From Parvularculaceae bacterium (GTDB lineage: Bacteria; Pseudomonadota; Alphaproteobacteria; Caulobacterales; Parvularculaceae): a stretch of 64,000 nucleotides of DNA. The stretch's first letter is position 1. Each line of letters starts with the position of its first letter. Below, piece by piece: positions 29,672 to 40,280 of this stretch. A program made the translations under genes and the position numbers. The stretch is from the NCBI GenBank assembly GCA_021776475.1, contig JAJFFV010000005.1, positions 434,001 to 498,000 of the forward strand. Direction: 5' to 3'. The notes beneath the pieces are model-generated. The model was not told where the DNA came from. It did no database searches and saw nothing but the letters and a program-made list of their open reading frames with translations.

Positions 29672-30829
29672 TTATGCCGTCATTCGCTCTATGAGACGGC
29701 GGATGAATAGGGTGCCCGCTTTAATCTGGTCACCGGAAATGAACTCATTTGGCTGGTGCGCCTGATCGATCGAGCCTGGGCCGCAGATGACAGCTGCAAA
29801 ACCTGCACCCTGGAACTGGCCACCCTCGGTACCGTAGGAGACGACTTCCGTATGGTTTTGACCGGTCAGGGATTTAGCAAGATTCGCAGCGGCGTTGTCT
29901 GCCTGCGGCGCAAGGCAAGGTGCGCTGGCGTTCCAATCGCTGATGATAGAACACCCATCGTGTTTTTGCTTCATTTCAGCTTCCAGCTCGCTTGCGTAAT
30001 CGAGAACGCGCTGGAAAATCACCGACGTGTCATCGGCTGGCACATTGCGTATGTCCCAGTCGAAGGAACAGGTGCCGGCCATGATATTCAACTGTGTGCC
30101 GCCGTTCACGACATTGACCGTCATCGTCGTTTGAGGTGGGTCAAATGGACCATCCGCAGGTGCTATCTGTTCAAGTTTGTTGGCAAGATCTTCGATGAAG
30201 GTGATCAGTTTAGCTGCCACCATGACCGCTGAGACGCCGCGATTCGATTGGCTTGAATGCGTCGTATACCCTGTAACTGTAGTTCGAAATGTATTGACGC
30301 CCTTGTGCCCGTCGATCACCCTCATCATGCTCGGCTCACCAACGATGACGGCGGATGGTGCTGGTACCTGCTTTCTGATTTCTGCAATCATGTCCGGTGC
30401 CCCAAGGCAACCAACTTCCTCGTCATATGACAGTGCAAAAATCAGCGGGCGTTTTAGCCCGGCCGTCAGCATCTCCGGTACCAACGACAAACCAATCGCC
30501 GAAAACGCTTTCATATCGCAGGTACCGCGGCCGTAAAAAAGGTCGTCTTTTTCGGTCAGTGTAAACGGATCAGTATGCCAGTCCTGTCCGGCCACCGGAA
30601 CGACATCTGTATGCCCGGAAAGAACAACGCCGCCATCGACTTTCGGACCAACCACCGCATAGAGATTGGCCTTCGTCCCATCTTTATTGGCGATCCGGTG
30701 GGCCCTGATCCCAAATCCCGCAAGGTAGCGTTCGACGTCCAAAATCAGATCGAGATTGGATCTGGACGACGTGGTATCATAGGCAACGAGGCGTGCGAGC
30801 CAGTCAATCTGTGCGCTAATGTCTGTCAT
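29672..30829 (-). CDS. argE: Acetylornithine deacetylase-like M20 amidohydrolase
   Basis: A 385-residue M20 zinc hydrolase: SGHTDVVPVAGQDW (first zinc His and catalytic Asp), YGRGTCDMKAF (bridging Asp), ALSYDEEVGCLGAPDMI (catalytic Glu and ligand), VNTFRTTVTGYTTHSSQ (dimer lid) and the terminal zinc His in CGPGSIDQAHQPNEFI. This is the ArgE pattern, hydrolysing N-acetyl-L-ornithine to ornithine in arginine synthesis. Other M20 members (DapE, peptidases) share the motifs, and no arg genes are adjacent; length and the CGPGSIDQAHQPNE ending favour ArgE. Confidence 0.85.
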   Translation of the reverse strand: MTDISAQIDWLARLVAYDTTSSRSNLDLILDVERYLAGFGIRAHRIANKDGTKANLYAVVGPKVDGGVVLSGHTDVVPVAGQDWHTDPFTLTEKDDLFYGRGTCDMKAFSAIGLSLVPEMLTAGLKRPLIFALSYDEEVGCLGAPDMIAEIRKQVPAPSAVIVGEPSMMRVIDGHKGVNTFRTTVTGYTTHSSQSNRGVSAVMVAAKLITFIEDLANKLEQIAPADGPFDPPQTTMTVNVVNGGTQLNIMAGTCSFDWDIRNVPADDTSVIFQRVLDYASELEAEMKQKHDGCSIISDWNASAPCLAPQADNAAANLAKSLTGQNHTEVVSYGTEGGQFQGAGFAAVICGPGSIDQAHQPNEFISGDQIKAGTLFIRRLIERMTA

Positions 30830-30940
30830 GCCTGCCTTCTACCGCACGGCGCCTGGTGCGTCATCCCCGACATTACGGGCTTTATAGTTGTTGCCGGGCA
30901 GCCCACGGCCTACGTTTTCAGCAGGGCGGAAAGGAACGAC

Positions 30941-31978
30941 ATGACAAGCCAACCTTCACCAATCTCACGGCGCACTTTCGCCGTCGCTTCGGGCGCCTCT
31001 ATATTGACAGCCATGGTCGCAACGCGATCTTTCGCCTTTGAGGATAAACCCTCATGGGAGGCGCGGACCGCAATGCTCTATAAGGTACAAGAAATTTACC
31101 CTGCCGTACTAGACGGGAAAATTCATGTGGCTGGCGGTTTTCTCGCTGCTGGAAACAAGATCGGTGGCAGCACATTTTATCACATCGCTTATGATCCGGT
31201 GACAGATACCTGGGAAGGAAAGGCATCCTTGTTGTCGGATCGACACCATCCGAATCTCGTTGCCCATCAGGGGATGCTCTACGCATTGGGCGGTTTCAAG
31301 GTAAAATCAGCCCGCGAAGTCTGGTCGATGCAATCGCAGACCTGGGTTTATGATCCGACAGCGGATCGCTGGTCTGAAGGACCGTTCGCACCCGAACGCC
31401 ACGGTGAGACTGTTTGCGCAAGTATCGGCGATCTTATTCATGTTGTCGGCGGACGCGGCCTCAAAGGCACCCGCAACAAGAGTTACGGCGATCATGACGA
31501 TACGGATCGCCATCTGGTATTTGATGCCGTGACCGCCGCCTGGACAAACGCGGCCCCGGCCCTGAGCAAGAGGAACAGTGCCGCTGGTGCCCTTATCGAT
31601 GGACTGTTTTATGTGGCTGGCGGCCGCACCGTTGAAGGCGGCAATGTTGCCGATCTTGAAATATACGACCCGCAGGAAGACAAATGGCGTTCTGGCGCGC
31701 CAATGCCACAGGCACAAGGTGGGCTCGCAGCAGCGGCCCTGGGCGACAAACTCTATGCCTTTGGCGGCGAATATTTCAACGATGGCGGGGGTGTCTATCC
31801 GGATAGCTGGGTTTATGATCCTGCTACGGATCAATGGCAGGCATCCTCACCTATGCTGACACCGCGTCACGGATTAGGCGGTGTGGCCCTAGATGGCTGG
31901 ATTTACGCGATCGGCGGTGGTGAAAAAGCGAGCGGGAATGCGACGAGTGACAAGCTCGAGCGGTTCCGGCCAGCTTAA
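30941..31978 (+). CDS. Tat-exported kelch-repeat protein
   Basis: A 345-residue protein with a twin-arginine signal (SPISRRTFAVASGASILTAM) and at least five kelch blades, for example VLDGKIHVAGGFLAAG, HQGMLYALGGFK, IGDLIHVVGGRG, IDGLFYVAGGRT, LGDKLYAFGGEY and LDGWIYAIGGGE, closing a beta-propeller. The Tat signal suggests folding before export to the periplasm. ATG 30941 has AAGGAA 6 bases upstream. No catalytic residues are recognised; relatives include N-acetylneuraminate epimerase and galactose oxidase-like propellers, but no copper or catalytic site is evident. Confidence 0.85.
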   Translation: MTSQPSPISRRTFAVASGASILTAMVATRSFAFEDKPSWEARTAMLYKVQEIYPAVLDGKIHVAGGFLAAGNKIGGSTFYHIAYDPVTDTWEGKASLLSDRHHPNLVAHQGMLYALGGFKVKSAREVWSMQSQTWVYDPTADRWSEGPFAPERHGETVCASIGDLIHVVGGRGLKGTRNKSYGDHDDTDRHLVFDAVTAAWTNAAPALSKRNSAAGALIDGLFYVAGGRTVEGGNVADLEIYDPQEDKWRSGAPMPQAQGGLAAAALGDKLYAFGGEYFNDGGGVYPDSWVYDPATDQWQASSPMLTPRHGLGGVALDGWIYAIGGGEKASGNATSDKLERFRPA

Positions 31979-32057: not shown

Positions 32058-34031
32058 TTATCCCTGATCTTGTAGATCATATCGCAACAAATTGTTGCTT
32101 ACGATCAGTTCACCGAGCGTTGCTGTATACTCCTTGGCGTCGCCTGACACGTAGCCACCGACAAGCGGCGCCAATGCTTCGCCGGTAGCAATGATGCCCG
32201 CGTCTGCAGCGGATGCCCGCTCGCGACGAAAATCTTCAAACACTGAATGGCTATTGAGAAGCCGTGCGTAGTCACGTGTTGCCTCAATGATGGTGTCGAA
32301 GGTCGCACCGGCGCGACCTCCATAAATGGCATTGCGTCGCATCAAGGCGTCCGAACTGCCCCATCCGGTCGCGAGAACGGATTGGGCAACCGCCAGCGAT
32401 GGCGGGATCTGGTTGATCCTGGCAAGCAAATCTTCCGGCGCACCATATCGGCCCTTATATTTGCGGGCGAGAATGTCGCGCCGCGTCTGTTCTTCCAGGG
32501 ACAACACCTTCTCACTTTCTTCCTTACGCAATATGGAAAGCAGTTCCTGTCTGTCGGCCATGATTTCGGCATTTACTCTTTTCATGGCCAACGCCACTAC
32601 GTCGGCATAAACCGGCTGGCGATTGTCCACCGCGAGGCCCGCAAAGTCGTCAGGGAAAGCAGCAATTGTTTCACCAGTTGCCATTTGATCCTGATCCATC
32701 GTATCAATCATGGCAATAAGATCCGATGTATTTTCGGGTGCAACCAGGATGTTGCGGATCGGCATATTGGCAGCTGCAAACCAGACACCCGCCAGCAACA
32801 CCACACTCATCGAACCAAGGCGGGATATTACTTCCCGGCGATCAGGGGGCGATGTTACTTCACACAGATGCAGTTGCCGGGCGACCAGCGGCGCGGTCCA
32901 TCCTTGCACCACCAAAGAAACGAGTACCACGGCCAGGGCGACCGAAAGATAGAGGCTCGCATTCGGTGCGCCGCCCAGCAGCGGCATGATACCGAGGAAC
33001 ACCGGGGTCGCGCCGCGCAAGCCAGTCCAGGCAATGAAGCCCTTTTCGGGCATTGAAAACTTGAACGGTGCCAACAGAAAAAAACTTGCAGCAGGCCGGG
33101 CAATCGCAAACAGAGCAATCGCCGTCACTGTTGCGGGGAGCGCGACAACGGCAATATGAGACGGCGTCACATAAAGGCCGAGCATGAAAAAGAGCCCGGT
33201 TTGTGCAAGCCAGGCAAGGCCATCAACACCAGGCGCAGCATCGCGCGCTGTAGACGGTGCCTTCCAGGCCAAGGTGACGCCGGTGATGTAGATCGCAAGA
33301 AAACCGCTGCCGCCGATAAGGTCAGCCACCCCGAATGTAAGAAGCCCAAGCACCATGGTCAATATTGCTTTCAGCCCCACGGGCAACCGCACATGCCGGA
33401 ACAACCACGCCGACAAGAGCCCGACGCCGTAACCGATGAAAGCTCCGGATACCAACATATAAATCGGCGACGTGATCCAATGCCACCAGATAAGCGGGTC
33501 GCCGGACAGTGTTTGAACCAGACCCAGGACCAAAATGATCGCAATTGGATCATTGAATCCGCTTTCAACTTCCAGAGTTGAAACAACTTTCTCCGGTAAT
33601 TTAATCCCGCTTGCCGCCAGCGCGAAGACCGCTGCCGCATCGGTTGAAGAGACAATCGCACCGAGCAGCAACGCATTCGCGAAATCCATCCCGAACAGCC
33701 ACATCGCCACGGGCGCAACGATGAATGCGGTCATCACCGTGCCGGCCACTGCCAAGGTTGCGCCAGGCCTTAACCCCTGTTGCAGGATCCTTGGTTTGGT
33801 GCGCAGCCCCCCTTCAAACAGGATCACCGCAATCGCCGCTGATCCCAGGTAAAACGCGAGTGCAGATTGATCGAAGTCGATACCGCCCGGTCCTTCGCGA
33901 CCAGCAAGCATGCCGGCCATCAAAAAGATCAGCAGCATCGGTGCACCGAGGCGGCTCCCGGCTGCGCCGACAAGGATGCCGCCGGCGGCAAACAAGGCAA
34001 GTGTAAAAAAAATCGGTCCGGTATCGGGCAT
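32058..34031 (-). CDS. CPA1 cation/proton antiporter (NhaP2-like) fused to a Bax-like glucosaminidase domain
   Basis: A 657-residue fusion. Residues 1-385 are a 12-13-helix antiporter of the potassium/proton NhaP2 (CvrA) type, with SSTDAAAVFALAASG (128-142) and ESGFNDPIAI (156-165) forming the ion site. An extra helix (404-420) leads into an extracytoplasmic part. From about 470 the sequence follows the Bax family: YADVVALAMKRVNAEIMADR, LARKY, INQIPPSLAVAQSVLATGWGSSDALMRRNAIYG, EATRDYARLLNSHSVFEDFR and GYVSGDAKEYTATLGELI. Bax-type glucosaminidases have a catalytic Glu in LESGWG; here the motif is LATGWG, with Ala554. The usual TrkA-C cytosolic regulatory domain of NhaP2 is absent. I chose the ATG at 34031; the upstream open frame is non-coding in character. 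Confidence 0.85.
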   Translation of the reverse strand: MPDTGPIFFTLALFAAGGILVGAAGSRLGAPMLLIFLMAGMLAGREGPGGIDFDQSALAFYLGSAAIAVILFEGGLRTKPRILQQGLRPGATLAVAGTVMTAFIVAPVAMWLFGMDFANALLLGAIVSSTDAAAVFALAASGIKLPEKVVSTLEVESGFNDPIAIILVLGLVQTLSGDPLIWWHWITSPIYMLVSGAFIGYGVGLLSAWLFRHVRLPVGLKAILTMVLGLLTFGVADLIGGSGFLAIYITGVTLAWKAPSTARDAAPGVDGLAWLAQTGLFFMLGLYVTPSHIAVVALPATVTAIALFAIARPAASFFLLAPFKFSMPEKGFIAWTGLRGATPVFLGIMPLLGGAPNASLYLSVALAVVLVSLVVQGWTAPLVARQLHLCEVTSPPDRREVISRLGSMSVVLLAGVWFAAANMPIRNILVAPENTSDLIAMIDTMDQDQMATGETIAAFPDDFAGLAVDNRQPVYADVVALAMKRVNAEIMADRQELLSILRKEESEKVLSLEEQTRRDILARKYKGRYGAPEDLLARINQIPPSLAVAQSVLATGWGSSDALMRRNAIYGGRAGATFDTIIEATRDYARLLNSHSVFEDFRRERASAADAGIIATGEALAPLVGGYVSGDAKEYTATLGELIVSNNLLRYDLQDQG

Positions 34032-37791: not shown

Positions 37792-37949
37792 TTGGCATCC
37801 TCAAAATTGTTGTCAGCGACGGACCCGTACGCGATCCGTTTTTGGACTGTAGCAAGCCTGCCCTCCTTGTCACCGTTTTCAAGCACCTTGCGCTGCCGAC
37901 AGAAAAATATCGTTTACGAATCCACGACCCCTGCTGCATAAATGTTCTC

Positions 37950-40280
37950 ATGCGACAAGTCCCCCCATTTATTGAAGGTGTTCTGCAAGAACATTACGGC
38001 ATCAAGGGACGCATTCGCTCGCTGCCGGGCGAGCTTGATCTCAATTTCGACGTCGAGACCGATGACAGCCGCTACGTGTTCAAAGTGATGCGGCTAGGCT
38101 GCACGGCAGAATTCGTCGACCTGCAAGTCAAGGCGATGGAACATGTAAGAAAGCGTGGCCTTGCTCAGTACATACCTGCGGTCGTCTGCACCACGAACAA
38201 CAAATCTTACATAAGTGCAATGGATGCCGATGGTCACAACCGGCTGGCATGGCTGATATCATTTTTGCCGGGCACTTTGCTGACGAACATCGAGCCCTGG
38301 ACGCTGCAACTTGCCAACAATATCGGTCGGGTGCTCGGGCATCTCAGCAACGCGCTGAAAGCCTTTGACCATCCGCTGCTTGATCGCCCCCTCAAGTGGG
38401 ATTTGCGCCAGGCCGGATGGATCGACGCCCATCTCGGTGCCTTCGAAGAGGCATGCCGTCGTAAAACCGTTGGCGCAATTGCAACCCGGTTTACGGATGA
38501 AATTTCACCGCTTTTGGAAACACTGCCGCGTGTGCCCATCTATGGCGATGCCAATGATATGAATATCTTGGTCAAGGCAACAAATGACCGTCCGAACGAG
38601 GTTGCGGGCATCATAGATTTTGGTGACATGATCCGGACACCCCGTGTTTGTGAACCTGCTATCGCGATGGCCTATGTCATGATGGGAGACGGCGATCCGA
38701 TAGCCCGCGGTGCGGCACTCGCTTCAGGGTTTCATGCAGTTTCACCATTGAACAAGGCCGAAATCTCTCTCCTGTTACCGCTGGTGAAACTGCGTCTTGC
38801 GGTCAGCGTCACAAACGCCGTAGTGGAATCCAGGCGCCATCCTGGCAATGAATACCTCTCGATTAGTGAAGCACCCGCATGGCATCTGCTGGACCAGCTC
38901 TCCGCGCTCAAAGAGAGGTCAGCGACAGCGCCTATCCTTTCAGCTTGCGTGGCAGCCAAAGTACATCGCGCCGCGCGAGACAGTAGTACCGAACAACTAC
39001 GCGCGCGCCGCCGACGTGTTACGCCCTCGAACCAGGTGCTTAGTTACGACACGCCGCTGCACCTTGTTCGAGGGAAAAAGCATTTTGTCTACCATGCAGA
39101 CGGCAGCGAGTACCTTGATGCCTATAACAACGTGCCACACGTCGGTCACGCGCATCCTGTCGTCAACGACGCGGTTACAAAACAGTTGTCCCTGTTGAAT
39201 ACCAATACGAGATATTTGCAGGATGTGCATGTCGACTATGCCGAAGCGATGTTGGCGTTGTTGCCGGACCAGCTGTCAAAAATCATTTTTTTGAATTCAG
39301 CCAGCGAAGCAAATGAACTCGCCCTGCGTCTCGTCCGGGCTGCAACCGGTGCCCGCGACATGTTGGTGATGGATCATGGCTATCATGGGGGCACAACCGG
39401 CGCGATGGATATCAGTCCGTACAAGTTTAATCATGCTAAGGGTACCAGAACACCACCCGACTGGGTGCATGTCACATTGCAGCCAGATTGTTATCGCGGA
39501 CAGTATCGCGGGCCGGACGTGACCTCGCGATTTATCTCAAATATCGATAATATGCTTGACGATCTTGCCGCAAAAAAGCGCCCGCTCGCCGGATTTATCT
39601 CGGAATGCCTGCCCAGCGTGGGCGGGCAGATTGTTCTTCCCGATGGATACCTGAAAGCTGTCTACAAAATGGTCCGTGCCGGTGGCGGTGTTTGTATCGC
39701 AGACGATGTGCAAACTGCCCTAGGGCGATTGGGGGAATTTTTCTGGGGATTCGAACAGCAAGATGCAGTTCCGGATATCGCCGTCTTCGGAAAACCTCTG
39801 GGCAATGGCTACCCGCTCGCAGCTGTTGCGATGACGGAGGAGATATCGAACGCCTTTACTGCCGGGCCTGAATTTTTCTCGACCTTTGGCGGGTCAAGCG
39901 CGGCCTGTGCAGCAGGCAACGCGGTACTGGATGTACTTGCCGCAGAAAAACTGCCAACCAATGCCCACAATGTTGGCGCCATAACGCTCGCTGAACTTCG
40001 TTCTTTGGCCCGGCAATACGAGATAATCGGTGAGGTCCGCGGATCCGGTTTCTTTTTGGGTGTCGATCTTGTGACAGATAGAGAAGAAAGATCAGCTGCC
40101 GCGGCACAAGCAGCTTACATCAAAAACCGGATGGCAGAGGAACGGGTGCTCATTGGCGTGGAGGGGCCGGACAACAATGTCCTGAAAATTCGTCCACCGA
40201 TGACTTTCGACGAAGCTGCTGCCGACAGACTTCTGTCAACTCTCGACGGAATCTTATCAGAACGAGGGGCGCGCGTTTAG
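37950..40280 (+). CDS. Aminoglycoside-phosphotransferase-like kinase fused to class III aminotransferase (phospho-lyase type)
   Basis: A 776-residue fusion. Residues 1-330 are an APH-fold kinase: YVFKVMRLG (ATP-site Lys), IYGDANDMNILV (198-209; the usual catalytic HGD appears as YGD) and IIDFGDM (metal-binding DFGD). From about 350 on is a PLP-dependent class III aminotransferase: NNVPHVGHAHP, MDHGYHGGTTGAMDISPYKF, ISECLPSVGGQIVLPDGYL, CIADDVQTALGRLG and VFGKPLGNGYPLAAV with the PLP Lys at about 615. Eukaryotic homologues are separate: hydroxylysine kinase, and phospho-lyases for phosphoethanolamine or phosphohydroxylysine. The fusion suggests phosphorylation then elimination of an amino alcohol. 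The start is uncertain; no clear ribosome site is seen and the frame opens at 37842. Confidence 0.85.
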   Translation: MRQVPPFIEGVLQEHYGIKGRIRSLPGELDLNFDVETDDSRYVFKVMRLGCTAEFVDLQVKAMEHVRKRGLAQYIPAVVCTTNNKSYISAMDADGHNRLAWLISFLPGTLLTNIEPWTLQLANNIGRVLGHLSNALKAFDHPLLDRPLKWDLRQAGWIDAHLGAFEEACRRKTVGAIATRFTDEISPLLETLPRVPIYGDANDMNILVKATNDRPNEVAGIIDFGDMIRTPRVCEPAIAMAYVMMGDGDPIARGAALASGFHAVSPLNKAEISLLLPLVKLRLAVSVTNAVVESRRHPGNEYLSISEAPAWHLLDQLSALKERSATAPILSACVAAKVHRAARDSSTEQLRARRRRVTPSNQVLSYDTPLHLVRGKKHFVYHADGSEYLDAYNNVPHVGHAHPVVNDAVTKQLSLLNTNTRYLQDVHVDYAEAMLALLPDQLSKIIFLNSASEANELALRLVRAATGARDMLVMDHGYHGGTTGAMDISPYKFNHAKGTRTPPDWVHVTLQPDCYRGQYRGPDVTSRFISNIDNMLDDLAAKKRPLAGFISECLPSVGGQIVLPDGYLKAVYKMVRAGGGVCIADDVQTALGRLGEFFWGFEQQDAVPDIAVFGKPLGNGYPLAAVAMTEEISNAFTAGPEFFSTFGGSSAACAAGNAVLDVLAAEKLPTNAHNVGAITLAELRSLARQYEIIGEVRGSGFFLGVDLVTDREERSAAAAQAAYIKNRMAEERVLIGVEGPDNNVLKIRPPMTFDEAAADRLLSTLDGILSERGARV

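Follow-up and report, generated by a model that had tools for sequence, protein, structure and literature searches.

The window analysed here is a stretch of 64,000 nucleotides, and the gene studied lies on its minus strand; no open frame was found on the plus strand at 32058-34031. The initial annotation had described, without naming a strand, one continuous frame joining an antiporter to a Bax-like domain. This frame was present, and SSTDAAAVFA and LATGWG with Ala554 were found at the residue positions given there (Table 1). A Kelch-repeat protein gene (30575-31978, plus strand) is convergent with the antiporter gene. Its first ATG is probably too early, since a Tat-like SRRTFAVASG starts near residue 130 of that frame. 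Elsewhere in the window, positions 37842-40280 (plus strand) encode an 812-aa protein with an APH-type kinase domain (PF01636) and a class-III aminotransferase (PF00202), an arrangement known from annotated proteins.

Table 1. Coordinates of the antiporter gene and of its domains and motifs in the window.
Feature	Coordinates	Strand	Basis
Complete 657-aa gene, CPA1 antiporter plus Bax-like pseudo-glucosaminidase domain	34031..32058	minus	Translation, Pfam/NCBIfam, orthologues intact in 27 further genomes
Antiporter membrane domain, residues 1-392, 13 TM helices, NhaP fold	32856..34031	minus	VIA-align, NF003715
SSTDAAAVFA (residues 128-137), ion-site motif with Thr130-Asp131	33621..33650	minus	T130, D131 in 28/28 fusions
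Asn160-Asp161, ND motif of CPA1 antiporters	33549..33554	minus	28/28 fusions; N160/D161 in MjNhaP1 (PMC4381896)
TM14, an additional transmembrane helix (residues 398-421) following a short basic linker	32769..32840	minus	Hydropathy, AF2
Predicted periplasmic stem, residues 422-467, variable sequence	32631..32768	minus	Alignment, AF2 model
Bax/GH73-like all-helical domain, residues 468-657	32061..32630	minus	NF007681 protein bax, PF01832, profile search
LATGWG (553-558), Ala554 (codon 32370-32372) in place of the catalytic Glu of ESGWG	32358..32375	minus	Alignment with stand-alone homologues
GRAGAT (572-577), remnant of the active-site beta-hairpin, no carboxylate, 6 residues	32301..32318	minus	Alignment

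The N-terminal part was matched by Pfam Na_H_Exchanger over residues 21-383 (E 8e-44). The NCBIfam potassium/proton antiporter model NF003715 scored 411 bits against a cut-off of 309 and NF003716 scored 362.8 bits against 355, both over the membrane part only, and the cut-off of NF003714 was not reached. Residues 3-388 were superposed on PaNhaP (4cz9) with a VIA-align Z score of 46 (382 residues, 2.6 A) and on MjNhaP1 with a Z score of 44. These solved Na+/H+ antiporters share the membrane fold and the ND motif with the window protein, but they are archaeal and have no C-terminal domain. The Na_H_Exchanger match, the NF003715 score and the NhaP fold agree with the earlier claim of a complete CPA1 antiporter; as judged from profiles and model, this half is of the NhaP/YcgO (PRK05326) type and has the complete 13-helix fold. 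T130, D131, N160, D161, R312 and R339 were present in all 28 fusions described below; the invariance of D131, N160, D161 and the arginines leads us to expect antiport. The transported ion is most likely K+ rather than Na+, an assignment that rests on the NCBIfam name and the comparison with YcgO. Beyond the window, the source genome has a second CPA1-like antiporter match, a distant one that is crossed by one in-frame TAG (G000:C1:204008-205105). It may be a decayed gene, or the alignment may overrun the gene end.

The C-terminal part was matched by Pfam PF01832 over residues 537-646. The score was 28.5 bits when the whole protein was scanned, slightly below the curated cut-off of 30.2, and 31.4 bits, slightly above it, when the C-terminal part was scanned alone. 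The fusion gene was the single PF01832 match in the source genome. The NCBIfam model NF007681 (protein bax) matched residues 470-646 with an E-value of 3.5e-9, far below its equivalog cut-off. Moreover, a profile built from the fused domains retrieved stand-alone alphaproteobacterial Bax-like proteins with E-values down to 8e-39, so that the Bax homology goes beyond chance. The HMM searches suggested by the initial annotation thus upheld the glucosaminidase relationship. In a viral-structure library, phage muramidases were retrieved with a probability of 1.00 but an E-value of 0.05-0.08, a supportive but weak result.

A structure model, another check proposed earlier, was computed with AF2 from 74 sequences (mean pLDDT 90.9, pTM 0.82) and recovered the NhaP fold for the membrane half; a model from 8 sequences was too poor to use, at a pLDDT of 58. 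The model contained a helix at residues 398-421, with a confidence of about 70-78 around the linker and TM14, and the hydropathy peak of TM14 was seen in 28 of 28 fusions. Lys and Arg were richer before TM14 than after it in most fusions, and about equal in some. For this fold, an outside N-terminus and a cytosolic C-terminus have been shown by PhoA/GFP in MjNhaP1 (PMC4381896) and by cysteine labelling in YcgO (PMC11808508). Together with TM14, the 13-helix fold gives an even number of spans, from which we infer that the Bax-like domain is periplasmic. This prediction, drawn from sequence, model and homology, agrees with the extracytoplasmic position first proposed.

To the membrane domain, the antiporter relatives from outside the order add a cytosolic module: CorC_HlyC was found in all three that were scanned and TrkA_C in two of them. 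No match to TrkA_C or CorC_HlyC was found in the window protein or in the five other fusions scanned, and the view that the Bax-like domain stands in place of a TrkA-C type module was therefore sustained. Among the closest known systems is YcgO (CvrA/NhaP2 type, PRK05326/NF003715-6), which resembles the fusion in its 13-TM membrane domain and its TD and ND motifs, and whose two equivalog cut-offs are passed by the fusion. In E. coli YcgO, a cytosolic RCK and CorC region controls K+/H+ antiport; the RCK domain is the proposed activator of the exchange, and PtsN on CorC is the proposed inhibitor (PMC11808508). The fusion has instead an extra TM helix and a predicted periplasmic Bax-like domain, and any regulation through the RCK/CorC module is therefore lost. 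Its obvious substitute would be the predicted periplasmic pseudoenzyme, acting as an anchor or as a regulator that binds a ligand. Some relatives of the same order (L060, L061 and L065) had no C-terminal module at all, which indicates that the module is dispensable for some homologues.

In total, 28 intact full-length fusions were found in three families of one alphaproteobacterial order. The fusion was present in 6 of 6 genomes examined of the source genus and in 3 of another genus of the same family; within a 398-genome sample of the order, a second and a third family added 1 and 18 genomes, respectively. The source genome belongs to the genus of Aquisalinus, which NCBI assigns to Parvularculaceae; among named relatives, Aquisalinus flavus NZ_CP042288.1 and two Aquisalinus MAGs show 69-78% identity. 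Outside the order, the fusion was not found among samples of 385 genomes of the class and 398 genomes of the phylum (the set from the order being likewise a sample), and the matching antiporters there aligned only up to about residue 400. One further candidate, a long frame in G120/L039, was rejected because the encoded protein, long and rich in Pro and Ala, has a Bax domain of the active type but is not an antiporter. The initial annotation had asked whether the fusion recurs, and its occurrence in 27 further genomes rules out a frameshift or an assembly join. Among the 28 fusions, no frameshift or loss of the C-terminal domain was seen.

In the computed trees, the fusions formed one side of a fully supported branch, both for the C-terminal domain (100/100) and for the antiporter domain (100/99). 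The simplest explanation is that the fusion arose once, long ago, and that its two halves have since descended together. No conserved gene neighbourhood was seen across genera, a weak result because the antiporter went unrecognised in 8 of the 19 loci. In the third family (L132, L139 and L140), genes of a molybdate-type ABC ATPase and DNA polymerase I were located near the fusion gene, as was an SLC13-like anion transporter in some loci; these neighbours are not common to the source genus. Regarding the earlier remark that no antiporter of this kind had been described, the open-licence articles yielded no relevant account of an antiporter fused to a glucosaminidase or peptidoglycan-binding domain.

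The distribution of Bax domains was also compared between the order and the class. A Bax-type profile matched 18 of 215 genomes of the order, and every match was a fusion; no stand-alone Bax-like protein was found in this 215-genome sample. In the class, by contrast, 167 of 385 genomes (43%) had a match, mostly in frames of about 300-400 aa. In all 28 fusion genomes, the fusion was the only PF01832 match.

The alignment of the fused domains with stand-alone homologues revealed the loss of the catalytic residue. At position 554, the fusions had Ala (26), Ser (1) or Thr (1) and never Glu, whereas Glu occupied the equivalent position in 29 of 29 stand-alone alphaproteobacterial Bax-like proteins. 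The initial annotation had noted this loss in the LATGWG of the window gene, and the result is stronger than what it had claimed, since the loss is general to the fusions and not peculiar to this gene. Its statement that the surrounding fold motifs were kept agrees with the alignment: 18 columns were conserved with the same residue in both groups, and GWG, N567, G571, Y627 and Y635 of the Bax/GH73 motif set were retained. Only three columns were conserved in each group but differed between them, namely 554 (E>A), 555 (S>T) and 598 (Y>F). The fusions therefore share the fold, GWG and these 18 columns with the stand-alone alphaproteobacterial proteins and E. coli Bax (PF01832/GH73), but differ in being joined to the membrane, in the replaced Glu of ESGWG, in a shortened hairpin and in the change of Tyr598 to Phe.

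A similar relation was found to the GH73 domain of Salmonella FlgJ (5dn4/5dn5), in which Glu184 of LESGWG, the putative general acid/base, aligns with Ala554 (PMC4752226). FlgJ is an active hydrolase in which a mobile beta-hairpin, carrying a second Glu (Glu223), makes up one half of the groove (PMC4752226); the window protein lacks counterparts of both Glu184 and this hairpin Glu. The active-site hairpin segment was 3-17 residues long in the fusions (median about 7) vs 9-25 in the stand-alone proteins. Its length and acidic residues also vary among the stand-alone homologues, and the hairpin alone is therefore not diagnostic; in the window protein, its GRAGAT remnant is free of acids. The shortening of this half of the cleft makes ordinary substrate binding somewhat less certain, and the glycan site may have been lost in the fusions.

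The selection acting on the two parts was estimated from pairs of near relatives. The dN/dS of the Bax part was about 0.07-0.25 compared to 0.01-0.06 for the membrane part, some of these values being rough because synonymous sites were saturated, and the Bax part evolves several times faster. The lost Glu, the 18 retained fold positions and the low computed dN/dS indicate a pseudoenzyme under purifying selection. By every sequence criterion, the fused domain is constrained yet appears noncatalytic. No intermediate fusion retaining the Glu was found in the 398 genomes of the order.

The loss of the Glu in all 28 fusions points to a present role of the domain in controlling the pump or anchoring it at the wall. 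We tentatively favour, at a little short of even, a reading in which a periplasmic ligand is bound without being cut and the antiporter is thereby regulated or positioned, a glycan being the first candidate for the ligand. In this mechanism, an antiporter of the inner membrane, exchanging protons for a monovalent cation that is most likely K+, would have given up its cytosolic RCK/CorC control module for TM14 and a periplasmic pseudoenzyme. The pseudoenzyme would derive from a Bax-type N-acetylglucosaminidase, with the fold and GWG kept and the GH73 acid/base Glu no longer usable. The leading candidate for its ligand is a glycan strand or a muropeptide, and the next is a periplasmic protein; by way of the stem and TM14, the pseudoenzyme would either regulate the antiporter or keep it at certain sites in the envelope. 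The architecture, the single origin, the loss of the Glu and the purifying selection come from computation, whereas the ion, the ligand and both the fact and the direction of regulation are inferred. Peptidoglycan binding, wall sensing and tethering, as proposed in the initial annotation, are candidate roles. Several observations weigh against the favoured reading: the shortened hairpin half, the faster evolution of the Bax part, the relatives of the order that have no C-terminal module and the lack of a conserved neighbourhood in an incomplete set of loci. A more specific version is a wall-gated antiporter, in which the pseudo-glucosaminidase would read the state of peptidoglycan or its muropeptides and set K+/H+ exchange through the added helix; we regard this version as possible but less likely than not.

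The domain could instead be a periplasmic protein-protein module that has lost its contact with peptidoglycan and acts as a dimer stabiliser or as a dock for a wall-synthesis or envelope protein. This is quite possible, considering that CPA1 antiporters are dimers (PMC4381896), that the substrate cleft has been shortened in its hairpin half, and that L512 and R523, conserved in the fusions only (28/28 each), are located outside the GWG motif. However, the retained motif residues from GWG to Y635 exceed the needs of a neutral scaffold. A noncatalytic wall-enzyme fold on a stem of variable sequence would also be a plausible anchor, and the domain might be a pure tether that fixes the antiporter at the wall or at a single site in the cell and leaves the transport rate unaffected; this is unlikely, since the domain replaced a regulatory module, which favours regulation. 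The least probable of the explanations is residual glycan cleavage by another carboxylate or by substrate-assisted catalysis. A single carboxylate has been proposed to suffice in some GH73 enzymes (PMC4752226), but that carboxylate is the very Glu that is missing from all fusions, and the hairpin remnant of the window protein offers no acid. A decaying relic or artefact, that is, a chance gene join without function, is very improbable as well. The PF01832 scores near or under the curated cut-off in several members would fit a relic, but the single ancient origin, the 28 intact frames, the dN/dS far under 1 and the invariant fold residues argue against it.

What is known of how CPA1 antiporters are controlled comes mainly from cytosolic modules. 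The fusion is a conserved natural case of an antiporter that lacks such a module and has instead a former wall enzyme predicted to face outward, and it offers a concrete, testable candidate for a protein that links the cell wall directly to the control of K+, pH and turgor. It also adds another lineage to the pseudoenzymes derived from wall enzymes, with a clear before-and-after residue signature. If the antiporter were indeed wall-gated, the status of the wall would be coupled directly to the control of ions, pH and turgor in one protein, and this would be the only role left to the Bax fold in this order.
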